Shown here one piece after another: positions 934 through 20,641 of a DNA stretch of 41,111 nt (within the stretch, counting starts at the first letter, position 1; every line of letters starts with the position of its first letter). A program made the translations under genes and the position numbers. The notes below the pieces were generated by a model. That model was given only the letters and a program-made list of their open reading frames with translations. It was not told where the DNA came from and did no database searches. The stretch comes from Verrucomicrobiota bacterium (lineage in GTDB: Bacteria > Verrucomicrobiota > Verrucomicrobiia > Palsa-1439), in assembly GCA_003152315.1 (NCBI GenBank), contig PLZV01000051.1:126467-167577 (forward strand). Reading direction: 5' to 3'.

Positions 934-2487
934 CTAATTCTCCGTTGCTAGCGGCAGGCGGATAATGAAGGTTGTGCCCCCGTTTGGGACAGACTCACAT
1001 TCGATACCGCCATCGTGTTCGATGATAATTTGTTGCGTCAGAGGCAATCCCAGTCCCGTACCGCCTGATTTCGTACTGAAGAACGGCTTGAATATCTGTT
1101 GTCGCTCGGCCTCCGTGATGCCGCTGCCCGTGTCCGAAATACGGATGACAACATAATTGCCATCGCGCGCGGTGGAGACAGTGAGCGTGCCTCCCTTGGG
1201 CATTGCTTCGATGGCGTTGCGCACGAGATTGAGGATTGCCTGCCAGAGTTGCTCTTCGTCGGCGCTGATGCTTGGCAGCGATGGCTCGAGCTCGATATTG
1301 ACGGTCACGCCCGTGGCCTCGAACAGCGATTTCATAAACAGCAACCCATGACCAAGAAGCTCGTCAAGCGCGACGCGTTCGCGACGCAGCTTGGGCATGC
1401 GTGCGAACTTGAGGTAATCCTCGGTGACCCGCTGGATGCGGTGCACCTCCGAATCAATGGACCGTAAGAGCGATCGTGCCTCGTCGCCGTCCTTCGCCTT
1501 GTCCCGGGCGAGCGTCTCGATTTCATCTCCGACCAGATCAATGTTCAGCGTGATGGAACTAAGCGGGTTCCGAATCTCGTGTGCGAGCCTGGCGGACATG
1601 GCTCCGATCACTGCCAGCCGCTCGGCCTGTAGTTTCGCCTCTTCCAGCCGTTTGCGCTCCGTGATGTCGCGCAGGATCGCCGAGCGACCGATGATGTTGC
1701 CCTGTAATCCGCGCAATTCAGAGACAGTTATCTCTACCAATACGCGGCAACCGTCTTTCGCTATGCGCTCTGTTTCCAGATAGTCGTGGCCGTTCTGGCG
1801 GACATGGTCTTCGATGCGAGCCAACTCCCCTGCCTTCACGAGTTCCGGCGGCACGATCACGCTGAAATGCTTCCCGATGATTTCCTCAGCGCGCCACCCG
1901 AAGATGGTCTCCGCCGCGTGGTTCCACGTGCGAAAGCGATTCTCGGCGTCCAGCGAGAAGATCACGTCGGCGGAGTCGTTGACGATCCTTTCCAGTTGTT
2001 GCAAGTGGCGGAACCGGTCGCTGGCGATGTACGCGTCTATCGCCAGCGAGGCGTCGAGCATGAATACCTTCTCCAGCGCCACGATGGACTCGGTCGCGCG
2101 CGCTGGATCGTCAGGATAGTAGCCAGAAATTAACGGCGCGATGATCTTGAAGTACTGGCTGTACGCGATCAGGTACCATCGTGGCGACAATCCCACGCGC
2201 TCGTGGGTCTGCCCAACACGAAGGCGGTCCGCGAGATAGGCGTCGTCAAAGTTCCCCTCTGTGATCCGCATCAAGTAGTCGTGCTGGAGTTTCTTGAGGC
2301 GCTCGACCGTCGTGCGGTCACGCAATAGTTGTGCGGTTTCGGGGAAGCTGAGCAGGTGGTCGTAAAACTCGTCTTCCACAGCAGCGATGTGTTTCTCGAA
2401 CAACGGACGCAACGCCTTGAGCAGTTGCTCGTCGTGCTCCGTCAAGCAGAGAAATCTCAGTCGCTGCTCTCTTTCCATGGGGGACAT
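934..2487 (-). CDS. Globin-coupled PAS sensor histidine kinase
   Basis: Predicted soluble haem-based gas or redox sensor kinase, 517 aa from the ATG chosen here. An in-frame TTG at 2517 would add 10 residues. Domains in order: an N-terminal protoglobin/globin-coupled-sensor domain (about 10-160) with the family signature RVGQTHERVGL, whose His (residue 95) fits the proximal haem ligand; a PAS domain (about 170-285); HisKA with the H-box LAHEIRNP (His303); and HATPase_c with N-box NLVRNAIEA, G1 DTGSGI and G2 GTGLGLPL. No membrane segments are seen. Known globin-coupled sensors bind O2 and sometimes CO or NO through haem, so this kinase probably reports oxygen to the downstream NtrC-type regulator. 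Neither candidate start has a clear Shine-Dalgarno. A sigma-70-like promoter at 2497-2525 would start transcription about 3 nt before the ATG. Confidence 0.92.
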   Translation of the reverse strand: MSPMEREQRLRFLCLTEHDEQLLKALRPLFEKHIAAVEDEFYDHLLSFPETAQLLRDRTTVERLKKLQHDYLMRITEGNFDDAYLADRLRVGQTHERVGLSPRWYLIAYSQYFKIIAPLISGYYPDDPARATESIVALEKVFMLDASLAIDAYIASDRFRHLQQLERIVNDSADVIFSLDAENRFRTWNHAAETIFGWRAEEIIGKHFSVIVPPELVKAGELARIEDHVRQNGHDYLETERIAKDGCRVLVEITVSELRGLQGNIIGRSAILRDITERKRLEEAKLQAERLAVIGAMSARLAHEIRNPLSSITLNIDLVGDEIETLARDKAKDGDEARSLLRSIDSEVHRIQRVTEDYLKFARMPKLRRERVALDELLGHGLLFMKSLFEATGVTVNIELEPSLPSISADEEQLWQAILNLVRNAIEAMPKGGTLTVSTARDGNYVVIRISDTGSGITEAERQQIFKPFFSTKSGGTGLGLPLTQQIIIEHDGGIECESVPNGGTTFIIRLPLATEN

Positions 2488-2496
2488 TGCAGGCCA

Positions 2497-2525
2497 AGCG
2501 TATGAGGCCACTGACAAGTTGTCAA
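2497..2525 (-). promoter_or_regulatory. Candidate sigma-70 promoter of the sensor kinase gene
   Basis: Reading the minus strand, a perfect -35 TTGACA (2520-2525) is followed by a 17-bp spacer and a weak -10 TACGCT (2497-2502, 3 of 6 matches). The predicted start, near 2490, is almost at the kinase ATG (2487). The perfect TGACA dyad overlaps the -35 box. The -10 is poor, so this is a candidate only. Confidence 0.35.
2512..2524. promoter_or_regulatory. Perfect TGACAAGTTGTCA dyad upstream of the kinase gene
   Basis: A 13-bp palindrome of the same type as the six paired dyads at 4690, 4720, 6100, 6130, 19732 and 19762, and the only copy with full symmetry. It stands alone, with no partner 30 bp away. 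It overlaps the candidate -35 of the kinase/regulator operon, a position that fits autorepression. No -24/-12 element was found on the minus strand beside it. Confidence 0.5.
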
Positions 2526-4689: not shown

Positions 4690-4732
4690 TGACAATGTGA
4701 CGGTTTACGGCTCAAGTCGTGACAGCTTGTCT
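4690..4732. promoter_or_regulatory. Paired TGACA-N3-TGTC dyads between ATPase and hupE (putative shared enhancer)
   Basis: Two copies: TGACAATGTGACG at 4690-4702 (right half imperfect) and TGACAGCTTGTCT at 4720-4732, starting exactly 30 bp apart. They lie between two divergent -24/-12 candidates: the ATPase -12 is 95 bp left of the first copy, and the hupE -12 is 140 bp right of the start of the second. This is the geometry of an upstream activating sequence for an enhancer-binding protein serving both directions. The binding protein is inferred, not shown. Confidence 0.6.
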
Positions 4733-5504: not shown

Positions 5505-6059
5505 ATGCGGGCTAACCTGCGAGCTTTTCATGAGTCGGACGCGGAACGGCTCTTCGATATGTATCGCCATTTCGAACCGAAGGGTGAGTTTCAAGGGCTG
5601 CCGCCACGCACCGCTTTGCAGATCAAAAAGTGGCTCACCCAACTTTGCGAGCGTGGCTTCTACCAGTTTGTAATCGAAGTTGGCGACCGTATCGTTGGTC
5701 ACGCCGCATTGTGCCCCTCGCACCGAAAAACCGAGGCTGAGGTGGCAGTTTTCCTTCAGCAAGACTACCGCGGGCACGGTTTGGGAAAGAAACTGTTACT
5801 CGGAACACTTAATTTTGGATGCAAGAAGCTGGAGCTCGCGCGTGTATGGATTTTCGTCATGGGCTCCAACCTCGTCGCGTTACATCTGTTTGAGAGCGTC
5901 GGTTTCCGACCGGGGCGTGATGGCGATCCCCTGAAGTGGGAAATCGAAATGGAGCGGCCCTCCCATTGCGCGAAGTGCAAAGGAGACAAATGCGCCGTCT
6001 TTGGAGAAACCTTCCCCATGACTGTTGGTACTCACGCCCCCTGCGGACCCAAACGTTGA
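5505..6059 (+). CDS. GNAT-family N-acetyltransferase with Cys-rich C-terminal tail
   Basis: A 184-residue GNAT fold protein. The acetyl-CoA pyrophosphate loop is seen as the QDYRGHGLGKKLL stretch (about residues 93-105), and the later strand reads ALHLFESVGFRPG. Start ATG 5505 has AGGAAGGA 6 nt upstream, better than the in-frame GTG at 5481. The last 30 residues carry a CAKCKGDKC cluster plus one more Cys, possibly a small metal site. It follows hupE by 45 bp and lies just before the acetyl-CoA synthetase operon. In enterobacterial Pat/PatZ a GNAT domain is fused to an ADP-forming synthetase-like domain, so protein acetylation linked to acetyl-CoA is possible. The substrate is unknown. Confidence 0.8.
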   Translation: MRANLRAFHESDAERLFDMYRHFEPKGEFQGLPPRTALQIKKWLTQLCERGFYQFVIEVGDRIVGHAALCPSHRKTEAEVAVFLQQDYRGHGLGKKLLLGTLNFGCKKLELARVWIFVMGSNLVALHLFESVGFRPGRDGDPLKWEIEMERPSHCAKCKGDKCAVFGETFPMTVGTHAPCGPKR

Positions 6060-6099
6060 GCGAAACCGCGCAGCGCCCGATACGATCCCTACCGTCGCG

Positions 6100-6142
6100 T
6101 GACAATGTGTCGGGATTCTCGTGGGCGGTTGACAGTTTGTCC
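6100..6142. promoter_or_regulatory. Paired TGACA-N3-TGTC dyads upstream of the hydrogenase operon
   Basis: TGACAATGTGTCG at 6100-6112 and TGACAGTTTGTCC at 6130-6142, starts exactly 30 bp apart as in the other two regions. They lie 126-156 bp upstream of the -12 element of the candidate sigma-54 promoter at 6242-6257, a normal enhancer distance. The putative binder is the NtrC-family regulator encoded at 1-929. Confidence 0.65.
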
Positions 6143-6168
6143 TGTCTGCGGGGTTTCTCTGTTTTGGC

Positions 6169-6186
6169 TTGTGAAATGTTTCACAC
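6169..6186. promoter_or_regulatory. Rex/CRP-like palindrome between enhancer and promoter
   Basis: TTGTGAAATGTTTCACAC contains a perfect 7+2+7 inverted repeat (6170-6185). It matches 17 of 18 positions allowed by the Rex operator consensus TTGTGAA-N4-TTCACAA, and also TGTGA-N6-TCACA of CRP/FNR-type regulators. It sits between the paired dyads and the -24/-12 element. Rex would report the NADH/NAD+ ratio, which fits an NADH-oxidising hydrogenase. Sequence alone cannot decide between the two families. Confidence 0.6.
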
Positions 6187-6241
6187 CCTATCTTGGCCAA
6201 TCACAAGCTCTTATGGGATGACTGCAGGGCTGGTCGCAAGC

Positions 6242-6257
6242 TGGCAAGGCCGCTGCT
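6242..6257 (+). promoter_or_regulatory. Sigma-54 -24/-12 promoter of the acetyl-CoA synthetase/hydrogenase operon
   Basis: TGGCAAGGCCGCTGCT matches TGGCACG-N4-TTGCW at 10 of 12 defined positions, with exact spacing between the GG and GC doublets. Predicted transcription start is near 6268, 7 nt before the ATG at 6275. This is the best of the four candidates. Confidence 0.6.
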
Positions 6258-6274
6258 AAGACAGCGAGCGGGCA

Positions 6275-8470
6275 ATGATACAAACCTTACAAGATACAGC
6301 TGGACCGTCAAAACAATCGGCAGGGACTGTGCGCGGCGGCAACCGACTTGAAGCCATCTTCCGTCCAAACTCTGTGGCTGTGATTGGCGCGTCGAACCGC
6401 GTGGGGACGGTTGGTCACGATCTGTTCCGCAACATCCTACTCAGTGGTTACAGTGGCACGCTGTACCCGGTCAATCCCAAGGCGGCCTCGATCGCCGGTG
6501 TACATGCCTACAAGAGCGTCGGCGAAATTCCTGACGACATCGATCTCGCCCTGATTATGGTCCCGGCCACCGCGGTGGCGCCGGTCTTGGAAGAATGTGG
6601 CCAGAAAGGTGCACGCGGGGCGGTGATCGTGACGGCAGGATTCAAGGAAGTTGGCGCCGAGGGCGCAGCGTTGGAGCGTCGCGCAGTGGAAATCGCTCGC
6701 GAGTATGAGATCTCGCTGGTCGGCCCGAACTGCCTCGGCGTGATCAACACCGACGCCGACATTATGCTCAATGCAAGCTTCGCACGGTGTATGCCCAAGC
6801 ACGGCAACATCGCCTTCCTTTCTCAAAGCGGCGCTCTCTGCGCAGGCATTCTCGACTACGCCCGAGGCCGCAACATCGGATTTTCAAAATTCATCAGTGT
6901 CGGCAACAAGGCCGACGTAACCGAAATTGATCTGCTGCGATACCTCGCCAAGGACGACAGCACCGACGTGATATTGATGTACCTGGAAACTCTCGTCGAC
7001 GGTCGGGCCCTTATCGAACTGGCTCGCGAAATCACGGGCGAGCTTGCCCACCGTAAACCGATACTGGCCATTAAATCCGGGCGGACTACGCAGGGCGCGG
7101 CCGCCGCCCGGTCACACACCGGCGCTTTGGCCGGTAGCGATGCTGTTTACGACGCCATTTTCGCGCAGGCCGGCATCCTGCGCGTCGACACTGTAGAAGA
7201 ACTTTTCGACTTCGCGGTCGGGTTCTCACGCCAGCCGTTGCCGAAAGGCAACCGCTTCGCCATAGTCACCAATGCGGGTGGACCCGGCATCATGGCCACC
7301 GATGCAGCCATCCGTCACGGACTCGAGCTCGCCAAACTGCGACCCGAGACACTCGAGTCCCTCAAGGCGAAGCTGCCACCGACCGCGAACTTTTCCAACC
7401 CCGTCGATGTGATCGGCGATGCCACCTGCGATCGCTATACCACCGCTCTGGAAGCCGTACTGGGCGACCCGAACGTCGACGGGTTGGTGGTTTTGCTCAC
7501 ACCGCAGTCCATGACCGACATCGAAGCCATTGCACGCACGATTGGCGAAATTGCGCCATTGAGCAAGAAGCCCGTACTTGCGTCATTCCTCGGCCACGTC
7601 GATGTGTCCGTGGGCGTTCGCATCCTCGAACAGCACGGCATCCCAAACTACGAGTTCCCTGAGAACGCATCCCGTTCGCTCGCCGCTATGTGCCGCTATA
7701 CGCAGTGGCTAACACGCCCGCGCACGCAGGAGCGTCGCTTTGAAGCAGACCAAGACGCGGTCCGGAAGATTTTCACGAAAGTTCGGGGTGAGGGCCGTAC
7801 GTTCCTCCCTGAGGCCGAAGCCTTGGCGGTATTGAAGGCGTACGGTTTCCCGTTGCTGCAGCATGATTTGGCGAAGAATGAAGACGAGGCCGCCGCATTG
7901 CTTGAAAAGATCGGCGGACCTGTCGCGATGAAGATTGCATCGCCCGATGTGGTGCACAAGATCGATGTCGGCGGTGTCCTGCTTAACATTTCCACGCCCG
8001 AGGAAGCCCGTGCTGGTTATAAAAAAATCACAAACGGGGTGAAACAAAAACTACCCAGTGCGCGGCTCCTCGGCGTGGAGATTCAAGCGATGGCGGGCAA
8101 GGGCGTCGAGGTCATCCTCGGTATCAGCAAAGATCCCACATTTGGTCACCTCATCATGTTCGGTTTGGGCGGCACGTACGTCGAAGTACTCAAGGACGTC
8201 AGCTTCCGTTTGGTGCCCATTCGCCAGCTTGGCGCTTGCAACATGATCAATTCCATCCGTGCCGCCAAAGTGTTTGAAAGCTTCCGTGGTCAGCCGCCTG
8301 CTGACATCGAGGCGATTGCCGAATGTCTGGAGCGTCTTTCGCAACTCATCGTTGATTTCCCGGAAATCTCCGAACTGGACATCAATCCCCTCATCGTCCA
8401 TGCCCAAGGCAAGGGCGCACGGGTGGCCGACGTGCGCATCGCACTTGCTGCTGACGCTCCCGGACCCTAG
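6275..8470 (+). CDS. ADP-forming acetyl-CoA (acyl-CoA) synthetase, alpha-beta fused
   Basis: Catalyses acyl-CoA + ADP + Pi to acid + ATP + CoA, the ATP-yielding last step of acetate fermentation in organisms without Pta/AckA. The 731 aa contain, in order: a CoA-binding Rossmann domain (VIGAS at about 36-40), a succinyl-CoA-ligase-like domain (SQSGALC at about 183), the phospho-histidine loop RSHTGALAGSD (His281), and an ATP-grasp domain (about 505-731). The conserved His argues for an active enzyme rather than the degenerate Pat regulatory domain. It lacks a GNAT domain, but a separate GNAT gene precedes it. It is first in a long operon; the next gene's AGGAGG overlaps its stop. It has no Shine-Dalgarno of its own, in keeping with the very short predicted leader. 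An alternative GTG start lies near 6329. Confidence 0.92.
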   Translation: MIQTLQDTAGPSKQSAGTVRGGNRLEAIFRPNSVAVIGASNRVGTVGHDLFRNILLSGYSGTLYPVNPKAASIAGVHAYKSVGEIPDDIDLALIMVPATAVAPVLEECGQKGARGAVIVTAGFKEVGAEGAALERRAVEIAREYEISLVGPNCLGVINTDADIMLNASFARCMPKHGNIAFLSQSGALCAGILDYARGRNIGFSKFISVGNKADVTEIDLLRYLAKDDSTDVILMYLETLVDGRALIELAREITGELAHRKPILAIKSGRTTQGAAAARSHTGALAGSDAVYDAIFAQAGILRVDTVEELFDFAVGFSRQPLPKGNRFAIVTNAGGPGIMATDAAIRHGLELAKLRPETLESLKAKLPPTANFSNPVDVIGDATCDRYTTALEAVLGDPNVDGLVVLLTPQSMTDIEAIARTIGEIAPLSKKPVLASFLGHVDVSVGVRILEQHGIPNYEFPENASRSLAAMCRYTQWLTRPRTQERRFEADQDAVRKIFTKVRGEGRTFLPEAEALAVLKAYGFPLLQHDLAKNEDEAAALLEKIGGPVAMKIASPDVVHKIDVGGVLLNISTPEEARAGYKKITNGVKQKLPSARLLGVEIQAMAGKGVEVILGISKDPTFGHLIMFGLGGTYVEVLKDVSFRLVPIRQLGACNMINSIRAAKVFESFRGQPPADIEAIAECLERLSQLIVDFPEISELDINPLIVHAQGKGARVADVRIALAADAPGP

Positions 8471-8480
8471 GAGGTCTGCC

Positions 8481-9443
8481 ATGCGTCATGCGGTTGCCAC
8501 TCTCTCGGATGTCAACACGAGCGACGCGCGCCGAATCTCGGTCGCACAAGTTCTTGTTTACGAATTGCGGGTGCGTGACGCCATGAGCAAGCCGCCCATC
8601 ACTGCTGCACCGACCGATACTTTGCGCGCCGTTCAAAATCTAATGAAAGCGCGGCGCATCTCCGGTGTGCCGATCAGCGACGGCGACAACTTGCTCGGCC
8701 TCGTCAGTATCGAGGACATCATCCGCGCGCTCGACAAAGGCTACATCGACGACTGCGTGCAGCAACACATGACCCGCAAGGTGATCACGCTCCGTGACCA
8801 CTTCTCGCTTGTGCGCGCCGTCGCAGAGTTCGACCGACACGAGTTCGGTCGTTTTCCCGTACTCGATGGGAACGACCACCTGGTCGGCGTCCTCAGCCGT
8901 GGCGACATTACGGGGTGTCTGATGCAGCACTTGGAACGTCGTGCCGAAGAAGCCCTGGCACATGAGGCCGCCTTGCGCGCGGAACGCGTGGCTAATGATA
9001 CCGCCGACCGGGTCGTGGTACGCGCACACGTGCGCACGGGTGATTACGACAGCGCGGGGAAGCTTTCCCAGCGAATGCGGCAGGTGTTGCGCGAGCGTGG
9101 TGTTGCCCCTGAGATTCGGCGGCGCGCGGCGGTGGTCGCCTATGAAGCTGAGACGAACATCATCATCCACTCGCTCGGTGGCGAGATCACCGCAACCATT
9201 GACCCTGACAAGGTGTGCATCGAAGCGGTCGATGTCGGTCCTGGCATTGAGAATGTGGAACAAGCGATGCAGGAAGGCTGGTCGACCGCGGGACGGCTAC
9301 CGCGCGAACTCGGATTCGGCGCCGGCATGGGATTGCCGAACATCAAGCGATGTTCGGACAGTTTAGAGATCAAATCGGATAGCAAGCATGGAACGCGTCT
9401 GCGTTCCGAGATTCACCTCCACAAAGCAGGAGTCTCTACATGA
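8481..9443 (+). CDS. CBS-pair protein with RsbW-type ATPase domain
   Basis: A 320-residue protein with two CBS motifs (about 30-150; RDAMSKPP and QHMTRKV begin the two halves) followed by a GHKL/anti-sigma-type ATPase domain (about 180-315: N-box EAETNIIIH, G1 VDVGPGI, G2 GFGAGMGLPNIK). CBS pairs usually bind adenine nucleotides; RsbW-type domains bind ATP and phosphorylate or sequester partners. Similar ATPase proteins sit at the head of HydABC hydrogenase operons in Clostridia and Thermotogae, but their role is unsettled. AGGAGGT at 8469-8475 sits 5 nt before the ATG; the reading frame stays open upstream but that part overlaps the synthetase. The stop overlaps the next start (ATGA). Confidence 0.88.
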   Translation: MRHAVATLSDVNTSDARRISVAQVLVYELRVRDAMSKPPITAAPTDTLRAVQNLMKARRISGVPISDGDNLLGLVSIEDIIRALDKGYIDDCVQQHMTRKVITLRDHFSLVRAVAEFDRHEFGRFPVLDGNDHLVGVLSRGDITGCLMQHLERRAEEALAHEAALRAERVANDTADRVVVRAHVRTGDYDSAGKLSQRMRQVLRERGVAPEIRRRAAVVAYEAETNIIIHSLGGEITATIDPDKVCIEAVDVGPGIENVEQAMQEGWSTAGRLPRELGFGAGMGLPNIKRCSDSLEIKSDSKHGTRLRSEIHLHKAGVST

Positions 9444-9805
9444 AAAGCCCAACGCTGGTTAAATTCCAGCCACTGATTGCCGCGCTCCAGGCCGTCCCGC
9501 TCACCGACAACCTGCCGGAAGAATTGACGGGCTGTTACATCTCCGATTTGCTTAGTGACGTTCTCGCGCACGCGGAGCCCGGGATGATTTGGCTGACCAT
9601 TCAGACGCACCGCAATGTCGTGTCTGTTGCCGCCACAAAGGATGTTGCCGTCGTCTTGTTCACCTGCGGACGCACGCCCCACGCCGAAATCATCGCCGAG
9701 GCGGAAGAGGAAGGCATTGCCCTGTTGACCACGTCATTAACGACGTACGAAGCCGCCGGGAAGCTTTGGGTAGCTGGATTGCGAGGGGAGAGCGGCCATG
9801 AGTAA
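9440..9805 (+). CDS. DRTGG-domain protein of the hydrogenase operon
   Basis: A 121-residue single-domain protein. The stretches CYISDLLSDVLAHA, MIWLTIQTHRNVVSVAA and EEEGIALLTTSLTTYEAAGKL follow the DRTGG family pattern known from phosphotransacetylase-type proteins and from hydrogenase operons. The function in hydrogenase operons is not established; a regulatory or ligand-sensing role is usual speculation. It overlaps the upstream CBS-HATPase by ATGA, and the downstream HydC start lies inside its last codons, so translation is coupled. Confidence 0.85.
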   Translation: MKSPTLVKFQPLIAALQAVPLTDNLPEELTGCYISDLLSDVLAHAEPGMIWLTIQTHRNVVSVAATKDVAVVLFTCGRTPHAEIIAEAEEEGIALLTTSLTTYEAAGKLWVAGLRGESGHE

Positions 9806-10370
9806 GCCCGTTGCGACCTCGACAACCTCGATTACGGCGCCCCCGCGAACTCATGGATCGAGCGAATCCACAGCGCCAATGTTGCCGCATCACCCGAGCG
9901 GCGACCAACGGTTCGCGCAACTCGACCAGACGATGCAGCACTACAACTACGAGCCGACGGCGCTCATCCAGGTGCTGCACGCGGCCCAACATAGTTTCGG
10001 TTATCTTGCGCTGGATGTGCTTCGTTACATCGCTTCGGCGATGAAGTTGCCGCTGGCGCATGTGTATGGCGTGACGACGTTCTACAACTTTTTCTCGCTC
10101 GTTCCGCGCGGCAAGTACCAAATCATGGTTTGCACGGGCACAACGTGTCACGTGCGCGGCGCGGCGACGGTCGTCGAGCGTGTCGGCCAGCAACTTGGTA
10201 TCAAGCAGGGCGAGACGACGAAAGACGGTTTGTTCAGTCTCCAGACCGCGCGCTGCATCGGCGCTTGCGCGCTGGCACCCGCGATCACCGTCGGTGACGA
10301 CGTGTACGGCAAGCTCTCGCCCGACAAGATTCCGCGATTCTGTCAGAAGGAGTTGAAGAAATATGTTTGA
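9798..10370 (+). CDS. hydC: HydC: NuoE-like [2Fe-2S] subunit of bifurcating hydrogenase
   Basis: Cytoplasmic NuoE/HoxE-like electron-transfer subunit, 190 aa. After a 40-residue low-complexity N-terminus come the NuoE fold and the four expected cluster ligands, in CTGTTC (about 113-118) and CIGAC (about 154-158). In HydABC-type complexes this subunit pairs with HydB next to the FMN. It overlaps the DRTGG gene by 8 bp and the following HATPase gene by 8 bp. The neighbouring HydB, HydA, HydS and HydL place it in a HydABCSL-type complex rather than respiratory complex I. Confidence 0.92.
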   Translation: MSKPVATSTTSITAPPRTHGSSESTAPMLPHHPSGDQRFAQLDQTMQHYNYEPTALIQVLHAAQHSFGYLALDVLRYIASAMKLPLAHVYGVTTFYNFFSLVPRGKYQIMVCTGTTCHVRGAATVVERVGQQLGIKQGETTKDGLFSLQTARCIGACALAPAITVGDDVYGKLSPDKIPRFCQKELKKYV

Positions 10371-10887
10371 TCAACTCTCGCTAAACATTCTCGACATCGG
10401 CATGAATTCGCTCGCCGCTGGCGCGACCGTGTTGCGCATTACCGTAATCGAGAATGCTGAGCATGACTGGCTGGTCATTCGTATCCGCGACAACGGACAT
10501 GGCATGGACCAGAAGACGTTGCGCGAGATCCTGGCCAGGAACGCTTCCACCAAAGCGGGTCGCAAGAAGCCCATCGGCCTTGGCCTCGCGTTGTTGCGGC
10601 AAACCTCCGAGATGTGTGGGGGGGCATTCCATGTTCATTCCGCTCCGGGAGAAGGCACCGGGGTGACTGCTTCCATGCGGGCTTCGCATGTGGACCGGCC
10701 GCCCCTGGGCGATCTCAATGCCACGATTTTCGCGTTGTGTGCGGCCAACCCCACCGTAGATATCCAACTGAATTGCGAATCGAATGGCGAGAAATTCCAC
10801 TTTAGCTCACAGGAAGGGAAATATCATGAACCTCGACGAACTCAAGAAGCTCAAAGAGAAGGCACAGCGGCAGGTCGCGCTGCGTGA
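10363..10887 (+). CDS. Stand-alone GHKL ATPase domain protein
   Basis: A 174-residue protein with a histidine-kinase-like ATPase domain (N-box DIGMNSLAAGA, G1 DNGHGM, G2 PIGLGLALL) but no phospho-accepting HisKA region and no sensor domain. The same small ATPase sits between the NuoE-like and NuoF-like genes in many [FeFe]-hydrogenase operons, so it belongs to the module. Its role is unknown. Its last 20 codons overlap the next gene by 62 bp, unusually long here. That tail (EPRRTQEAQREGTAAGRAA) reads like out-of-frame coding sequence and may be a read-through end. Confidence 0.85.
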   Translation: MFDQLSLNILDIGMNSLAAGATVLRITVIENAEHDWLVIRIRDNGHGMDQKTLREILARNASTKAGRKKPIGLGLALLRQTSEMCGGAFHVHSAPGEGTGVTASMRASHVDRPPLGDLNATIFALCAANPTVDIQLNCESNGEKFHFSSQEGKYHEPRRTQEAQREGTAAGRAA

Positions 10888-11212
10888 AGGCAACAAGAAG
10901 TACCGTGTTGTGTTCAGCATGGGCACCAGCGGCATCGCCGCCGGTGCGCGTGAGATCATGACCACCATGTTGGATGAAATCGACAAGCGCGGCATTGAGA
11001 ATGTGGAAGTCGCCGTCACCGGCGAGATCGGTTTGGTGGATGCCGAACCGGTCATCCGCATCGAGGAACGGAGCGGTGAGAAGGTCACGTACGCCAAAGT
11101 CAACGCCGACGCCGCACGCAAAATCGTCTCGGAGCATTTGCAAAAGGGCAAGGTTGTTGACGGCCTCGCCGTCGGTAAAGTCAAACAGAAGGAAGCCGAG
11201 CGCCTGAAATGA
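10826..11212 (+). CDS. Ferredoxin-like ([2Fe-2S] thioredoxin-fold) protein lacking all cysteines
   Basis: A 128-residue protein in the slot that holds a [2Fe-2S] ferredoxin-like gene in HydABC operons. It keeps the family's fold pattern (GTSGIAAGAREIM, VTGEIGLVDAEP). Yet relatives have cysteines in GTCG and TGCIG-C, and here these are Ser35, Glu67 and Val71; the whole protein has no cysteine. It therefore cannot hold an Fe-S cluster in the usual way. The reading frame is intact with a good ribosome site (AGGAAGGG, 7 nt before ATG 10826), so it looks maintained rather than decayed. A structural, assembly or regulatory role is possible. The stop overlaps the HydB start (ATGA). Confidence 0.85.
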   Translation: MNLDELKKLKEKAQRQVALREGNKKYRVVFSMGTSGIAAGAREIMTTMLDEIDKRGIENVEVAVTGEIGLVDAEPVIRIEERSGEKVTYAKVNADAARKIVSEHLQKGKVVDGLAVGKVKQKEAERLK

Positions 11213-13077
11213 TTCGCACTCACGTCCTGGTTTGCACGGGCACGGGCTGCACCAGCAGCGGCAGTCTCGCGACGCGCGACGCGTTGCTGGCGGAGCTGAA
11301 GAAGCACGGGCTTGATAACGAGATTGAAATTGTCGAGACCGGCTGCATGGGCCGCTGCGATCTTGGCCCGGTTTCGCTCGTGCATCCCGACGGCACGTTT
11401 TACAAGAATGTCCTGGCCGCGGAAGTGCCGAAACTCGTCGAGGAACATTTCCTCAAAGGGCGCCCCTACAAGAAATTGCTGCCCGAAGACCCGACGACTC
11501 ACAACGCGGTGCTGACGCAGGCGGATTTCACCTTCTTCAACCGCCAACTGCGCATCGTGCGCGACAACTGCGGCGTCATCGACCCCGAGAACATTGAGGA
11601 GTACATCGCGCGTGACGGCTACCTGGCGCTCGGGAAGGTGCTCACCGAAATGAAACCCGAGCAGGTCATCACGGAAATCAAAGCGAGCAGCCTGCGTGGA
11701 CGCGGAGGCGCGGGTTTCCCGACCGGCAAGAAATGGGAGATTATGCGCAAGGCATCTGATTTCCCGAAATACGTTGTCTGCAATGCCGACGAGGGTGATC
11801 CGGGCGCATTCATGAATCGCTCGGTTCTTGAAGGAGATCCGCATAGCGTCATCGAAGGCATGGCGATCGGCGCTTACGCGATGGGCGCCAGTCGCGGCTT
11901 CGTATATATCCGCGCGGAATACGGCCTGGCCGTCAAACGCCTGCACATTGCCATCGAACAGGCCTACAAGTATGGCTTCCTCGGCAAACAACTCTTCGGA
12001 ACCAACTTCGACTTTGACGTTGAGGTGCGCATCGGCGCCGGCGCATTCGTTTGCGGTGAGGAAACGGCTCTGATGCGTTCGGTTGAAGGGCGTCGCGGCC
12101 AGCCGCAACCGCGTCCACCCTTCCCCGCACAACGCGGCCTCTGGGGCAAACCGACGAATATTAACAACGTCGAAACGTGGGCCACGATTCGTCCAATCAT
12201 GCTCAAAGGCGCGAAGTGGTTTGCTTCCATCGGCACCGAGAAGACCAAGGGGACGAAAGTCTTTTGTCTCGCGGGAAAGATCAATAACACCGGCGTCGCG
12301 GAGTTGCCGTACGGCACGACGTTGCGCGAGATGATTTTCGAAGTCGGCGGCGGTATTCCCAACGGCAAGAAGTTCAAAGCCGTGCAAACCGGCGGCCCAT
12401 CGGGCGGCGTTATACCGGAGCAGCACATCGACGAGCCAATCGACTACGAGTCACTGCAAAAGCTCGGCTCCATCATGGGATCGGGCGGCCTCGTCGTGAT
12501 GGACGAAGACTCCTGCATGGTGGACGTTGCCCGGTTCTTCCTCGAATTCTGCTGTGACGAGAGCTGCGGCAAATGCCCGCCCTGCCGCGTCGGTACGCGC
12601 CAGATGCTGAACATTCTGGACCGAATCAGCAAGGGCGAGGGCGAGCCGGATGACATCGGGAAACTGCAAGACCTCGCCGCGATGGTGAAAGATACCAGTC
12701 TCTGCGGTCTTGGACAGACCGCCCCGAACCCGGTGTTGACGACATTGCGCTATTTTCGGCAGGAGTATGAAGCCCATATTCACGACAAACGTTGTCCCGC
12801 GCAGGTTTGTCGCGATCTCCTCTCCTTTACGATCAACCAGGAAAAGTGTGTTGGCTGCTCCGTGTGCGCCCGGAGTTGTCCGGTCAATACAATCTTCAAG
12901 GTCAAAGGCCAAAAGAAATACTTTATCGTCGAGGAAGACTGCATCCACTGCGGCGCGTGCCTGGATACGTGCAAGTTCGACTCGATCATCAAAGCCTCGG
13001 AAGGACCGTCTCACACGGCACCGCCCAAACCCGAGTTTGAACCGATTCCCGGCCGCAAGATGGCGGTGACCAGATGA
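11209..13077 (+). CDS. hydB: HydB: NuoF-like FMN/NAD(H) subunit of bifurcating [NiFe] hydrogenase
   Basis: A 622-residue flavoprotein, the proposed site where electrons are split or merged between NAD(H) and ferredoxin. Domains: an N-terminal thioredoxin-like [2Fe-2S] domain (Cys9, Cys14, Cys46, Cys50); the NuoF core with the FMN/NADH loop RGRGGAGFPTGKKW; the [4Fe-4S] site CDESCGKCPPCRVGT with a later Cys; an HDKRCPAQVC segment, where T. maritima-type HydB has a zinc hinge; and two C-terminal [4Fe-4S] motifs, CVGCSVCARSCP and CIHCGACLDTCK. The extra N- and C-terminal cluster domains separate it from HoxF and NuoF and match HydB of HydABC/HydABCSL enzymes. It overlaps both neighbours by ATGA. 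Confidence 0.95.
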   Translation: MIRTHVLVCTGTGCTSSGSLATRDALLAELKKHGLDNEIEIVETGCMGRCDLGPVSLVHPDGTFYKNVLAAEVPKLVEEHFLKGRPYKKLLPEDPTTHNAVLTQADFTFFNRQLRIVRDNCGVIDPENIEEYIARDGYLALGKVLTEMKPEQVITEIKASSLRGRGGAGFPTGKKWEIMRKASDFPKYVVCNADEGDPGAFMNRSVLEGDPHSVIEGMAIGAYAMGASRGFVYIRAEYGLAVKRLHIAIEQAYKYGFLGKQLFGTNFDFDVEVRIGAGAFVCGEETALMRSVEGRRGQPQPRPPFPAQRGLWGKPTNINNVETWATIRPIMLKGAKWFASIGTEKTKGTKVFCLAGKINNTGVAELPYGTTLREMIFEVGGGIPNGKKFKAVQTGGPSGGVIPEQHIDEPIDYESLQKLGSIMGSGGLVVMDEDSCMVDVARFFLEFCCDESCGKCPPCRVGTRQMLNILDRISKGEGEPDDIGKLQDLAAMVKDTSLCGLGQTAPNPVLTTLRYFRQEYEAHIHDKRCPAQVCRDLLSFTINQEKCVGCSVCARSCPVNTIFKVKGQKKYFIVEEDCIHCGACLDTCKFDSIIKASEGPSHTAPPKPEFEPIPGRKMAVTR

Positions 13078-14894
13078 TTGCCCCGAAACAGATTACTGTC
13101 ACAATCGATGGCCAGAAGTGCGTGGGTGATGAAGGTCAGACCGTTCTTCAAATCGCCACGGCCAACCACATTTACATCCCCACACTCTGTTATCTCAAAC
13201 ATCTTTCGTCATGGGGTGGCTGCCGTATGTGCATCGTTGAAATCGCTGGCAGCCCGAAGGTCGTTCCCTCCTGCGCCACGCCGGCGGTGGATGGCACAAA
13301 CTATTCCGCCAATAACGACCGCTTACGCCAACTCCGTCGTCTCACGCTGGAGCTACTTTTCAGCGAGCGCAACCATATTTGCCCATTCTGCCCGACGAAC
13401 CATGGCGATTGCGAACTGCAGCAGCAGGGCTATCGACACGGAATGGATAGTGTCCGCTATCCCTATCTCTATCCCGCGCTGCCAGTGGATACGAGTGGTG
13501 AATACTTCGCGCTGGATCACAACCGTTGCATCCTCTGCACCCGATGTGTCCGTGTTTGCGATGAGATCGAAGGCGTTCACACGCTCGATGTCGCCTTCCG
13601 CGGGGAGAAAAACCGCGTCGTCGTCGATCTCAACGGAACCTTCGGCGCGTCCGACACTTGCACAAATTGCGGCGCCTGTGTCGCCGCGTGCCCGACTGGT
13701 GCTTTGTTCGACAAGGCCGCCGCGTTTCGTGGCAAGCTTAATACCTGCCAGGTCGTTCGCACCACGTGTACCGAGTGTCCCGTCGGTTGCGGCCTGCTCG
13801 TGTTCACCAAGGAGAACCGCATCGTCGAGGTGTTCGGCGACCACGATTCAAAAGTCAGCCTGGGCCACCTTTGCGCGCGTGGCCGCTACGAAACATGGGC
13901 CGTGCCGCGTGAGCGTATCGTGCAGCCGATGATCCGAACGATTCACGCACTCAAACCCGTCTCCTGGCAGCAAGCGCTGCGCGAGATTGCCCGCATTCGC
14001 GGCAAGCTCGACGCGACTCAGACGGCATTGCTTGTCTCTCCACGCATCACAAACGAGGCCGCAAAAGCCGTGGCTCGCGTTGCCGCGCGTTTCGGAAAGG
14101 TCGGCATGTTCGTCGCGCGCGACGAATCTGCGTTGTGCGAAGCGGGTACGGGTGCTTTGGAGGGGACGAACTCCCTGTCTAACGCCGACGCAATCATCGT
14201 TCTCGGTGCGCAGCCGAGCCGCACACACGGCGTCCTTGCCGCGAAAATCCGCAACGCCGTCCGCCGACGCCGCGCAAAACTGCTGGTCTTCCACGCGCAC
14301 AAGAGCGACCTCGATCAGCACGCGGACATCTGCGCCAATATTGTGAGCCTCGAACATGTATTCTGGGATCGCGTCGCTGAAGCGTTGAAGAATGTGAAGC
14401 GTCCCGCGCTGGTGTACGGCGCGGCGGCGATGACACCCATCGGTGTCACTGTGATGGCTCGGCTCATCCAGATTCTCGAATCGAATCCGAGTCGACACGC
14501 GCCGGTGTTGATCCCACTCCCAACGAGCACGAATAGCCAGGCAGTGGCAGCGGCAGGTGTCGAACCCGTCGAAGATGTCGCACCGTGGCTCGACGCGCAG
14601 CCGTTGCAGTACCTGCATATCATTGCGAGCGACGAACCCGATGGCGGCGCGCGGTTATTCGAGGAGAAACCTGTGCGCGTGTTGCTTGAGCGGATTGACT
14701 GCGTGGTCGTGCAAGCGAGTTACCAGTCGGAGTTGACCGAGGCGGCGCGGATCGTGTTACCGGCAGCAATGTGGAGCGAGAAGTCTGGCACGGTCACGAA
14801 CATCGAAGGGCGCGAGTTGCCGCTGCAGTCGGTGTTGACGCCGCGAGGCGAGGCGCGCGAAGACGCGAGGATTCTTGGGGAATTGGTATCATGA
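13074..14894 (+). CDS. hydA: HydA-like (NuoG-type) Fe-S subunit without H-cluster domain
   Basis: A 606-residue NuoG-like electron conduit. N-terminal [2Fe-2S] ligands lie in CYLKHLSSWGGCRMC and later PSC; a His/Cys cluster region follows (HICPFCPTNHGDC), then two [4Fe-4S] motifs CILCTRCVRVCD and CTNCGACVAACP. A fourth CTECPVGC...C site begins a molybdopterin-oxidoreductase-like C-terminal half (about 225-606), which appears vestigial as in NuoG. The [FeFe] H-cluster motifs (TSCCP, FMPCxxK-type) are absent, so it is not itself a hydrogenase. It should pass electrons from HydB to HydS/HydL. At 606 aa it is far larger than HoxU (about 240 aa), which argues against a Hox enzyme. Confidence 0.9.
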   Translation: MIAPKQITVTIDGQKCVGDEGQTVLQIATANHIYIPTLCYLKHLSSWGGCRMCIVEIAGSPKVVPSCATPAVDGTNYSANNDRLRQLRRLTLELLFSERNHICPFCPTNHGDCELQQQGYRHGMDSVRYPYLYPALPVDTSGEYFALDHNRCILCTRCVRVCDEIEGVHTLDVAFRGEKNRVVVDLNGTFGASDTCTNCGACVAACPTGALFDKAAAFRGKLNTCQVVRTTCTECPVGCGLLVFTKENRIVEVFGDHDSKVSLGHLCARGRYETWAVPRERIVQPMIRTIHALKPVSWQQALREIARIRGKLDATQTALLVSPRITNEAAKAVARVAARFGKVGMFVARDESALCEAGTGALEGTNSLSNADAIIVLGAQPSRTHGVLAAKIRNAVRRRRAKLLVFHAHKSDLDQHADICANIVSLEHVFWDRVAEALKNVKRPALVYGAAAMTPIGVTVMARLIQILESNPSRHAPVLIPLPTSTNSQAVAAAGVEPVEDVAPWLDAQPLQYLHIIASDEPDGGARLFEEKPVRVLLERIDCVVVQASYQSELTEAARIVLPAAMWSEKSGTVTNIEGRELPLQSVLTPRGEAREDARILGELVS

Positions 14895-15436
14895 GCGACA
14901 AACCGAAAATCCGAGTGGCGACGGCGTGGCTGGGCGGTTGTTCCGGCTGTCACATGTCGTTTCTCGATCTCGACGAGCGGCTGATCGAGTTAAGCAAGCT
15001 TGTCGAGCTTACTGCCAGCCCGATCACGGACGTAAAGGAAATCCCGGAAGTGGACGTGGGTATCGTCGAAGGGGCGGTGTGCACCGATGAAAACGAGCAT
15101 GTGCTGCGCACGATGCGCGCGCGGTGCAAAGTGCTCGTCGCCATTGGCGACTGCGCGGTGACGGGCAATATCCCTGCGTTGCGCAACCAGTTCCTGCTGG
15201 AGGATGTCGTTGCGCGCGGGTTCATTGAAACGGAAAGTACGCAGATCGGCGAAATGCCCAACGATCCTGTCGTGCCGCGACTGCTGAAACGCGTGCGCCC
15301 CATCCACGAGTTAGTCAAGGTGGACGCCTATATCCCTGGCTGCCCACCCGACGCCGACACGATTTGGTACGCGCTCACAGAATTACTGGCCGGCCGCGCC
15401 CCGAATTGGGACGAGAGGACTTTTAGTTATGACTGA
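14891..15436 (+). CDS. hydS: HydS: [NiFe] hydrogenase small subunit
   Basis: A 181-residue HoxY-like small subunit carrying the cluster next to the NiFe site. Ligand segments are [11 protein letters not shown] near the N-terminus, GDCAVTGN in the middle and [11 protein letters not shown] near the C-terminus, as expected for one proximal [4Fe-4S] cluster. There is no Tat signal or membrane anchor, so the enzyme is cytoplasmic (group 3 type). It overlaps HydA by ATGA and HydL by 8 bp. Confidence 0.94.
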
Positions 15437-16865
15437 CGCCGACAGCAACGTCATCACCATCAACCCCGTGACGCGCATCGAGGGACACGCGAAGATCACA
15501 ATCCACCTCGACGAGACGGGTGAGGTGTCGGACGCGCGATTTCACGTGGTCGAGTTTCGCGGGTTCGAAAAATTCTGCGAGGGCCGCTACTTCGCCGAGA
15601 TGCCGCAGATTACCGCGCGCATCTGCGGTATCTGTCCTGTGAGCCATCTGTTGGCAAGCGCGAAAACCTGCGACGCCATTCTGGGTGTGGAGATTCCCCG
15701 TCCGGCGAAATTGCTGCGCGAGTTGATGCACATGGGTCAACTCACGCAATCGCATGCCCTGAGCTTTTTCCACCTCAGCGCGCCTGACTTGCTACTCGGG
15801 TGGGACAGCGACCCCGCGCAGCGCAACATTATCGGACTTATCCAACAGCATCCGGATATTGCCAGGCGCGGGATTCGACTTCGCAAGTTCGGCCAAGAGG
15901 TAATCAAGCTGACGGGTGGTCGCAAGATTCACGCGGATTTTCCTGTGCCTGGCGGGGTGAACAAGGCGCTGGTGGAAACCGAGCGCCTCGAGATGCTCGA
16001 GGGTTTGTCTGAAGCAATGGGGCATGCCCGGTTCGCGCTCGACTTGCTGAGGAAGTATCAGGCGGATCATTTGCAGGAGGTTGAAGAGTTTGCCAGTTTT
16101 GATTCGAATTTCATGGGACTGGTGCGGCCCAATGGCTCGCTCGAGCATTACGATGGCAATCTGCGCTTTTGCGACCACGGTGGGCAGGTGCTCGAAGACC
16201 AGATCAACCCGGCGCACTACCTCGATATTATCGCCGAAGCAACGGAACCCTGGTCGTACCTGAAGTTTCCCTTTATCAAGCGGCTTGGTTACCCGCAGGG
16301 GATGTATCGTGTTGGGCCGTTGGCCCGGCTGAACATCTGCGATCATATTTCAACGCCGCTGGCGAACGCGGAATTGCAGGAATGGCGGGCGACGGGGGCC
16401 GCGCCACGGCGCAGTTCGTTCCACTATCATTGGGCGCGGCTCATTGAAATCATCTATGCCTTGGAGCGCATCCGCGAATTGCTCGAAGACCGTGAGATCA
16501 CGAGCACCGACGTGATGGTCTCCGGCCCGCCAAAAAATGAGGAAGGCGTGGGCATTATCGAGGCCCCACGCGGCACGTTGTTCCACCATTATTGGGTGGA
16601 CTCTGGCGGGCGCATTGAGAAGGTCAACCTCGTGGTCGCCACCGGCCACAACAACCTCGCGATGAACCGCGCTGTGAAAGCCATCGCGGAACAATACGTG
16701 AAGTCGCAGCGACTACAGGAAGGCATGCTTAACCGCGTCGAAGCCGCCATTCGCTGCTACGACCCTTGCCTTTCCTGCTCGACGCACGCGGTCGGCCAGA
16801 TGCCGATGCGCGTTGAGTTGGTGAGCGTGGGCGGCGATGTGTTGCAGACGCTCCAGCGTGATTGA
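15429..16865 (+). CDS. hydL: HydL: [NiFe] hydrogenase large subunit precursor
   Basis: A 478-residue HoxH-like catalytic subunit that reduces protons or oxidises H2. Both NiFe-binding motifs are present: L1 [10 protein letters not shown] (about 58-67) and L2 [10 protein letters not shown] near the C-terminus. The 25 residues after His453 are the usual extension removed by a maturation endopeptidase, whose gene follows 9 bp downstream. With HydA, HydB, HydC and HydS it completes the five-subunit set of the electron-bifurcating [NiFe] hydrogenase HydABCSL known from Acetomicrobium mobile. Assignment of bifurcation rests on subunit make-up, not on activity data. Confidence 0.95.
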
Positions 16866-16874
16866 GACAAAACC

Positions 16875-17354
16875 ATGAAAACACTTGTGCTCGGTTATGG
16901 CAATCGCAGCCGCACGGATGATGGTGTCGGCTGGTTTGTCCTGGAGCGCTTGCAAGAATTGGGGTTGCCGAATACGGAATTGCATACTTCACACCAACTC
17001 GACGTGGATCATGCCGAACTGATCTGTAGTTTCGACGAGGTGTTATTCGTCGATGCCGCGATCCCGCAAAGTCCGCAACTGATCACCCGAACGGTCGTCC
17101 AACCGTGTTTTCGGAGCCACGCGGTGGCGCACTATCTGACACCGGGCGATCTGCTTGAATTGGCGCAGACCCTCTTTGGCCGGGCGCCCCGCGGGATTCT
17201 CTTCAGCATCCGCGGCTCTGATTTTAATTTCGGCACAACGCTGTCGTCGGCGACTGAGCGCGCTGCGTATGAAGTGGTGCGCGAGATTGGAGACTTGCTG
17301 TCATTGCCGGGGCAATCGGAAGCGGCGAAGAGAGGGTTCGGGGCGCATGCATGA
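16875..17354 (+). CDS. Hydrogenase maturation endopeptidase (HycI/HoxW family)
   Basis: A 159-residue nickel-dependent protease expected to remove the C-terminal extension of HydL after NiFe insertion. The N-terminus has the family motif GYGNRSRTDDGVGW, with Asp where HybD has its metal-ligand Glu16 (a change common in HoxW-like members). A second acidic ligand is likely Asp56 (LFVDAAIP) and a His lies in SHAVAHYLTP. It sits directly after its substrate gene and overlaps hypA by 8 bp. Confidence 0.9.
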   Translation: MKTLVLGYGNRSRTDDGVGWFVLERLQELGLPNTELHTSHQLDVDHAELICSFDEVLFVDAAIPQSPQLITRTVVQPCFRSHAVAHYLTPGDLLELAQTLFGRAPRGILFSIRGSDFNFGTTLSSATERAAYEVVREIGDLLSLPGQSEAAKRGFGAHA

Positions 17355-17718
17355 ATTGTCCATCGCCGAGGAACTCGTGCGAGTAATTCGCGAGGAGTTG
17401 CGAATTCACCCGAACGCGAAACTCAAGACGGCTCTCGTACGCATCGGTGTGCTGCGGCTGATTGAACCTGCGACGCTCGAATTCTGCTTCGAGGCGGCCG
17501 CATGCGACAGTCCCCTGGCAGGCGCGCGGCTGCAAGTCGAGCAGGTCGAAGCATCGGCGCGGTGTTGCAAGTGCGATCGGGAGTTTCCGGTGGAGCACAA
17601 CTGGTTCGAATGTCCGTGGTGTGGCGAGACCGGCTCAGAGTTGCTGCGCGGTAACGAATTGCAACTCGTTAGCCTGGAAATCGAAAAAGAAATGGCGAAC
17701 GCATATGCCGTCGAATAA
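17347..17718 (+). CDS. hypA: HypA nickel metallochaperone
   Basis: A 123-residue protein that delivers Ni to the hydrogenase large subunit. It begins MHELSIAEEL, so the start is fixed by the invariant Met-His-Glu N-terminus that binds nickel; the frame is open further upstream but that part overlaps the protease gene. The zinc site is in the second half (CCKCDREF and FECPWCG). HypA is separated from hypBFCDE, which are in the next plus-strand operon. Confidence 0.95.
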   Translation: MHELSIAEELVRVIREELRIHPNAKLKTALVRIGVLRLIEPATLEFCFEAAACDSPLAGARLQVEQVEASARCCKCDREFPVEHNWFECPWCGETGSELLRGNELQLVSLEIEKEMANAYAVE

Positions 17719-19731: not shown

Positions 19732-19774
19732 TGACAAGTTGTCGTGACCGCAGGCTACCAGTGACACCGTGTCG
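19732..19774. promoter_or_regulatory. Paired TGACA-N3-TGTC dyads upstream of hypB
   Basis: TGACAAGTTGTCG at 19732-19744 and TGACACCGTGTCG at 19762-19774, starts exactly 30 bp apart. They lie 106-136 bp upstream of the candidate -12 element at 19868. This is the third region with the same pair and spacing. Confidence 0.65.
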
Positions 19775-19853: not shown

Positions 19854-19869
19854 TGGCATCAGCGGTGCT
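19854..19869 (+). promoter_or_regulatory. Sigma-54 -24/-12 promoter of the hyp/oxidoreductase operon
   Basis: TGGCATCAGCGGTGCT has perfect GG and GC doublets with correct spacing, TGGCA in the -24 box and TGCT in the -12 box. The predicted start, near 19880, is 9 nt before the HypB ATG at 19889. This argues against the upstream in-frame ATG at 19829, which would place the promoter inside the gene. Confidence 0.55.
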
Positions 19870-19888
19870 AACCCATTGCACACCGGAT

Positions 19889-20641
19889 ATGAACGTCAAA
19901 GTTTTGCGTAACGTACTGGAAGCAAATGACCAGATTGCCTCGCGAATCCGCGAGCAACTGGTCGCCAAGCACGTCACCACAATCAACCTCATCAGTTCGC
20001 CTGGTGCCGGCAAAACCTCATTGCTGGAACGCACAATCCCACTTCTCAATGGTCGCTATCGCGTCGCCGTGCTTGAGGGTGACATCGCCACCACACGAGA
20101 CGCCGAACGCATCGAAAAACTCGGCGTACCAGTGGTGCAACTGCTCACGGGTGGCGCGTGCCATCTTGAAGCGCCGCTGGTGCAGCGAGGTCTCGGCGAA
20201 TTGAATCTGGATGAGATCGATCTGCTGTTCATTGAGAACGTCGGTAATATCGCGTGTCCCGCTGAGTTCGATCTCGGCGAGACCGCGAAAGTCGGGATTC
20301 TCAGCGTGACCGAAGGCCACGACAAGCCGGCGAAATATCCCCTGCTCTTTCACGAGATCGGCGCGCTCGTGTTGAATAAGACTGATTTGCTGCCATACAC
20401 CGATTTCGATTTTGAGCAATTCCGCGGTGACTTCCGCAGGCTCAATCACGGCGCCCCCGTCTTCCAAGTTTCCTGCAAGACATCCAGCGGCATCGACGAG
20501 TGGGTGCATTGGATCGAACACTTGTGCGCCGGCGAACTTCACTTCGAGCCGCACTCGCACAGCCACGACGATCTTGCCGGCATCATCCAGCCCCATCAAC
20601 ATCCACATCGACACCATCACGAAGGAGTAGTACGAGGATGA
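19889..20641 (+). CDS. hypB: HypB nickel-inserting GTPase with C-terminal His-rich tail
   Basis: GTPase that drives nickel insertion into the hydrogenase large subunit, 250 aa. The P-loop is SSPGAGKTS; the metal site between subunits is GGACHLEA; NKTD gives guanine specificity. The N-terminus starts directly with MNVKVLRNVLEANDQ, with neither the E. coli-type CxxCGC nor the N-terminal His stretch. Instead the last 35 residues carry ten histidines (PHSHSHDD and PHQHPHRHHHE), a likely nickel store at the opposite end of the protein from the usual place. ATG 19889 is chosen over 19829 by family alignment and by the promoter at 19854-19869. The stop overlaps the hypF start. Confidence 0.93.
   Translation: MNVKVLRNVLEANDQIASRIREQLVAKHVTTINLISSPGAGKTSLLERTIPLLNGRYRVAVLEGDIATTRDAERIEKLGVPVVQLLTGGACHLEAPLVQRGLGELNLDEIDLLFIENVGNIACPAEFDLGETAKVGILSVTEGHDKPAKYPLLFHEIGALVLNKTDLLPYTDFDFEQFRGDFRRLNHGAPVFQVSCKTSSGIDEWVHWIEHLCAGELHFEPHSHSHDDLAGIIQPHQHPHRHHHEGVVRG

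Follow-up and report, generated by a model that had tools for sequence, protein, structure and literature searches.

A predicted Rex operator within the sigma-54 enhancer loop of a NiFe hydrogenase operon in a Verrucomicrobiota bacterium

We analysed a stretch of 41,111 nucleotides from a Verrucomicrobiota bacterium (the window) and propose that an 18-bp inverted repeat found between the enhancer sites and the sigma-54 element of a hydrogenase promoter is a Rex operator, which would add a redox check to the conserved sigma-54 promoter of an operon for an NAD-linked, bifurcating-type NiFe hydrogenase. We consider this the best explanation of the data, with a probability of about 0.8. The features on which it is based are collected in Table 1.

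Table 1. Features of the hydrogenase and hyp promoters and of the neighbouring genes (positions in the window).
Feature	Sequence	Position	Strand	Basis
Rex operator (predicted)	TTGTGAAATGTTTCACAC	6169-6186		1 mismatch; 0/100 shuffles; arm conservation; class-wide motif-Rex association
Upstream activator site 1	GACAATGTGTC	6101-6111		Exact 30-bp repeat kept in relatives
Upstream activator site 2	GACAGTTTGTC	6131-6141		Same as site 1 (30-bp repeat, relatives)
Sigma-54 -24/-12 element	TGGCAAGGCCGCTGC, then TAA	6242-6256	+	GG-N10-GC spacing; conserved
hyp-operon enhancer pair	GACAAGTTGTC / GACACCGTGTC	19733-19773 (starts 19733 and 19763)		30-bp repeat, kept in G001 and G010
hyp-operon sigma-54 element	TGGCATCAGCGGTGC	19854-19868	+	Promoter comparison with relatives
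Possible second Rex-like box, weak	AAGTGAAAAACTTCACAA	19616-19633		2 mismatches; 100 bp upstream of hyp enhancer pair
NtrC-type response regulator / sigma-54 activator		1-929, runs off window (G000:C32:126175-127395)	-	Pfam Response_reg, Sigma54_activat, HTH_8
Protoglobin-PAS histidine kinase, presumed partner of the activator		934-2517	-	Pfam Protoglobin, PAS, HisKA, HATPase_c
First operon gene, ADP-forming acyl/acetate-CoA ligase (predicted)		6275-8470	+	Pfam ATP-grasp_5, Succ_CoA_lig, CoA_binding_2; NCBIfam TIGR02717 over cut-off
Rest of operon		8259-17718	+	Pfam: CBS-HATPase, DRTGG, NuoE-like, HATPase, NuoF-like, HydA-like, small and large NiFe hydrogenase subunits, HypA

The box TTGTGAAATGTTTCACAC, read on the + strand, lies in the 215-bp gap between the end of a GNAT gene (6059) and the start of the first gene of the operon (6275). 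It has the form TTGTGAA-N4-TTCACAA and matches 13 of the 14 specified bases; as the original prediction had stated, only one position departs from the Rex consensus TTGTGAANNNNTTCACAA; it is the final base, C in place of A. Measured against TTGTGAAW4TTCACAA, the stricter consensus from S. aureus (PMC2883068), the box deviates a second time, by a G in the spacer. The box is the sole match to TTGTGAANNNNTTCACAA in the whole window at no more than one mismatch, and not one of 100 dinucleotide-preserving shuffles of the window holds any match at this threshold.

The box is flanked on one side by a pair of GACANNNTGTC elements, which start exactly 30 bp apart, and on the other by a TGGC-N8-TGC sigma-54 element, so its earlier placement between enhancer and promoter was correct. 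The sigma-54 element has the GG-N10-GC spacing expected at -24/-12, and the genome encodes RpoN as well as an enhancer-binding activator to accompany the upstream sites. When the flanking T is included (TGACANNNTGTC), the only two exact tandem pairs of the genome are both inside the window, one at the hydrogenase operon and the other at the hyp operon, and a third GACANNNTGTC pair with one mismatch is found upstream of hupE at 4691-4731; as pairs of exact 30-bp periodicity at all three loci, hupE and the hydrogenase and hyp operons, they resemble a hydrogenase-specific enhancer code. In the relatives' P1-type promoters, 100-102 bp separate the end of the pair from TGGC, compared with 90 bp in G007 and 80 bp in the hyp promoters; these spacings differ by about one helical turn each, as looping enhancers would lead one to expect (PMC4740811). 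In both promoters (6242-6275 and 19854-19889), the transcription start predicted from the sigma-54 element precedes the first ATG by only about 8-9 nt, so that either the leaders would be of minimal length or translation in fact begins further in.

The NtrC-type regulator encoded at the left edge of the window is probably the activator of this promoter. It presumably binds the GACANNNTGTC sites, given its proximity and the additional GACANNNTGTC at 2513, at the start of the protoglobin kinase gene itself; this single copy also suggests autoregulation. Its counterpart in the same-genus genome G001 is 78% identical, and the activator-kinase neighbour pair is conserved beside the locus there. The activator of the hydrogenase operon probably responds to gas. 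The activator gene (L198:2676-3896) contains unread bases, which give XX in the translation, and is about 47 residues short of the G001 copy, probably owing to an assembly gap or a masked stretch.

Following the original prediction, we looked for its possible regulators and for further copies. The genome encodes one canonical Rex with a winged helix (PF06971) and a Rossmann domain (PF02629) carrying the GxGxxG motif as GVGHLG; this protein is over the cut-off of the NCBIfam Rex models and is matched by the T. aquaticus Rex structures at an E-value of about 3e-42. Two CRP/FNR homologues are also present. In a genome-wide scan allowing two mismatches or fewer, the motif had 22 sites and its reversed control 8; with no more than one mismatch allowed, the counts were 6 and 1. 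Other boxes are located at nuoA, at a Fer4-HEAT (ferredoxin) operon that neighbours a second NiFe hydrogenase cluster, and in the interval from ppx to an ATP-synthase operon, and those at nuoA and Fer4-HEAT were found again in other family members. Together with the box upstream of the NAD-linked hydrogenase operon, these predicted targets in NADH or fermentation metabolism fit a Rex regulon. Five genomes, belonging to four genera of the family, keep a Rex box upstream of the small polyferredoxin (Fer4) and HEAT-repeat operon (L021:4017-4034 and its relatives in L189, L193, L194 and L195), with a neighbouring hydrogenase present or absent. Another Rex-like box is common to two species (L021:12981-12998 and L187:6925-6942), near an ORF without Pfam match.

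We then considered the distribution of the motif across the class, by counting near-perfect boxes in 141 genomes, 38 with Rex and 103 without, with the reversed pattern as control. The motif co-occurs with Rex: Rex-bearing genomes hold a mean of 4.4 boxes against 0.4 in Rex-less ones (Mann-Whitney p = 1e-20, for genomes that are phylogenetically non-independent, though many families are represented), the control means being 0.29 and 0.17, respectively. At least three sites are found in 30 of the 38 genomes with Rex and in 2 of the 103 without. In G006, G008, G109 and G140, Rex boxes are present and a Rex gene was not found; the gene may be missing from the assembly only, as most of these genomes are incomplete or have Rex-bearing congeners.

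The original prediction had also noted that the box fits a CRP-type site, and it does contain the half-sites TGTGA-N6-TCACA, a fit that does not discriminate between the two families. An operator for a CRP/FNR-family protein could be served by either of the two homologues, one of which is encoded on the contig of the window, some 10 kb upstream of it, but both carry an FNR-type E-x-x-S-R recognition helix, reading KETFSR, and FNR prefers TTGAT-type sites; the CRP-type helix (R-E-x-x-x-R) was found in neither (0/2), and both proteins are below the NCBIfam CRP cut-off. Co-occurrence is likewise against this reading, as the motif follows Rex across the class and did not accompany CRP/FNR proteins among the family genomes G001, G002, G003, G009 and G010: the same-genus G001 and G002 retain boxes with no CRP/FNR HTH found above cut-off (in G001 this absence is not certain, as the genome is about 90% complete), whereas G003, G009 and G010, which do encode CRP/FNR proteins above cut-off but no Rex, are not enriched in boxes. 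We therefore regard a CRP/FNR operator as very unlikely. Of the two regulators originally named for the box, Rex is upheld by the canonical Rex protein, the conserved box and the class-wide association, and CRP is disfavoured by the recognition helix and by co-occurrence; judging from these comparisons, the box is very probably a Rex operator.

Selective conservation of the box is seen in the promoter of the same-genus relative (L063/G001), the hydrogenase of which is 83% identical. Four conserved islands stand out there: the two enhancer sites (15/15 and 13/13 identical), the sigma-54 element (19/20) and the box (16/18), whose arms are intact (14/14, final C included), both changes being in the spacer (2 of its 4 bases). 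The loop DNA around the box is only 37% identical (29/79), and the distance from the start of the box to the start of TGGC is unchanged at 73 bp. The enhancer and sigma-54 core is conserved across the family, the sigma-54 element keeping its distance in family members, but the box is absent from this promoter in G003, G006, G007, G008 and G009, even though the core is present, and G007 is without it despite having Rex. The conservation of the box here thus rests on two species; it held within the genus and failed outside it, and we rejected the box as a family-wide feature of this promoter. By its distribution in these genomes, the redox layer is therefore restricted to the genus, either gained there or lost elsewhere.

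This absence from all other family members examined, the Rex-bearing G007 included, counts against the Rex operator reading. Together with the off-consensus final base, it would also be expected of a chance palindrome or of a remnant without present function. Against such an origin, which we consider extremely improbable, are the shuffled windows, none of which held a match, and the retention of all 14 arm bases, with the same final C, in a loop that is otherwise so divergent. A further point against our reading comes from the hyp promoter, where the weak Rex-like box lies upstream of the enhancer loop and outside it; AAGTGAAAAACTTCACAA was not seen in the aligned same-genus hyp promoter, and we rejected it as a conserved partner of the hydrogenase box.

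The position of the box, near -90, also counts against the Rex operator reading as it stands, since the verified S. aureus sites are in or beside the promoter. As these sites overlap or adjoin sigma-A promoters (PMC2883068), the box might instead overlap a second promoter, read with the housekeeping sigma factor, which Rex would repress simply by excluding polymerase, the sigma-54 promoter acting on its own. Short patches common to both species between the box and the sigma-54 element, such as ATGACT, would agree with this. However, a scan of 6040-6300, crude for a phylum whose promoters are poorly known, found no sigma-70-like promoter, and the flanks next to the box, unlike the sigma-54 element, are unconserved between the two species. 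An overlapping promoter of this kind appears to us unlikely, although less so than the CRP/FNR or chance origins.

Under the preferred reading, a Rex operator inside the enhancer loop, the protoglobin histidine kinase would presumably phosphorylate the NtrC-type activator which, bound to its two sites, would loop to the sigma-54 polymerase. Rex binds when NAD+ dominates and is released as NADH rises (PMC2883068); at a low NADH/NAD+ ratio, a Rex dimer would thus occupy the box, within the 100-bp loop, and reduce looping or the contact between activator and polymerase. As NADH accumulates, Rex would leave and the operon would be open to full activation. The outcome would be an AND gate that needs both an active activator signal and NADH in excess. 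The box is separated by 27 bp from the second activator site and by 55 bp from the -24 element; between its centre and that of site 2 there are 41.5 bp, or 3.95 helical turns. Expression from a sigma-54 promoter can be quenched by proteins bound within its enhancer loop, and the effect peaks when they lie an integral number of helical turns away from the activator site (PMC4740811); the phase seen here matches that of strongest quenching in the synthetic enhancers, a match that is suggestive only. In its fullest form, the proposal would be a natural quenching switch, in which in-phase Rex in the sigma-54 loop gates a gas-sensing activator by NADH, as a recent addition within one genus to a conserved activator-promoter pair; we hold this version tentatively, at somewhat less than even odds.

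By homology, the operon is predicted to encode an NAD-linked NiFe hydrogenase of the bifurcating type. The nearest solved structure for both its large and its HydA-like subunits is NiFe-HydABCSL of Acetomicrobium mobile (7t2r), the best PDB matches being 7t2r_D (E 3e-171) and 7t2r_A (E 5e-101), respectively. NiFe-HydABCSL couples H2 to NAD and ferredoxin (PMC8880783). This operon determines when electrons of NADH and ferredoxin are exchanged with hydrogen in the cell and, if Rex acts as proposed, it would be held down until NADH accumulates.

The Rex regulon has mostly been studied in Gram-positive bacteria, and a large comparative-genomics study of Rex reportedly appeared in J. Bacteriol. in 2012. 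The present analysis extends this regulon to the Verrucomicrobia with genome-wide evidence, the motif tracking the Rex gene across the class and occurring at nuoA and hydrogenase promoters. It also provides a natural promoter for testing repression from within a sigma-54 loop, which has been demonstrated to date with synthetic enhancers. Our literature searches, in which coverage of subscription journals was thin, found no paper on Rex with Verrucomicrobia and hydrogenase and, for Rex with an enhancer-binding protein and sigma-54, only a study of C. beijerinckii.

Compared with known systems, the box resembles the S. aureus Rex operators in its 18-bp inverted repeat, its spacer length, the Rex family concerned and its targets in anaerobic and NADH metabolism (PMC2883068), but those sites are associated with sigma-A promoters, whereas here the box has its centre near -90 and lies within the loop of a sigma-54 enhancer. 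The A. mobile enzyme, the closest solved relative of the two subunits, has been characterised biochemically in a report whose main text makes no mention of Rex (PMC8880783), and the operon described here also starts with a CoA ligase. The hnd promoter of Solidesulfovibrio fructosivorans has a predicted Rex site at an electron-bifurcating, NAD-linked hydrogenase; that enzyme is of the FeFe type, by contrast with the NiFe enzyme here, and the accessible part of the report does not describe a sigma-54 enhancer layout (PMC10084766). The synthetic sigma-54 loops offer the same proposed mode of action, in which a protein within the loop lowers looping in a phase-dependent manner, but they were built with LacI, TetR or TraR sites in E. 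coli and not with Rex (PMC4740811). Finally, the adhA1 and adhA2 genes of C. beijerinckii are redox genes under a sigma-54 activator (SigL/AdhR) and also members of the Rex regulon (PMC7017808); they differ in encoding alcohol dehydrogenases and in their activator, and the position of the Rex site relative to a loop is not discussed in the part of the source available. Joint control by Rex and sigma-54 is therefore already known, and it is the layout found here that is unusual.
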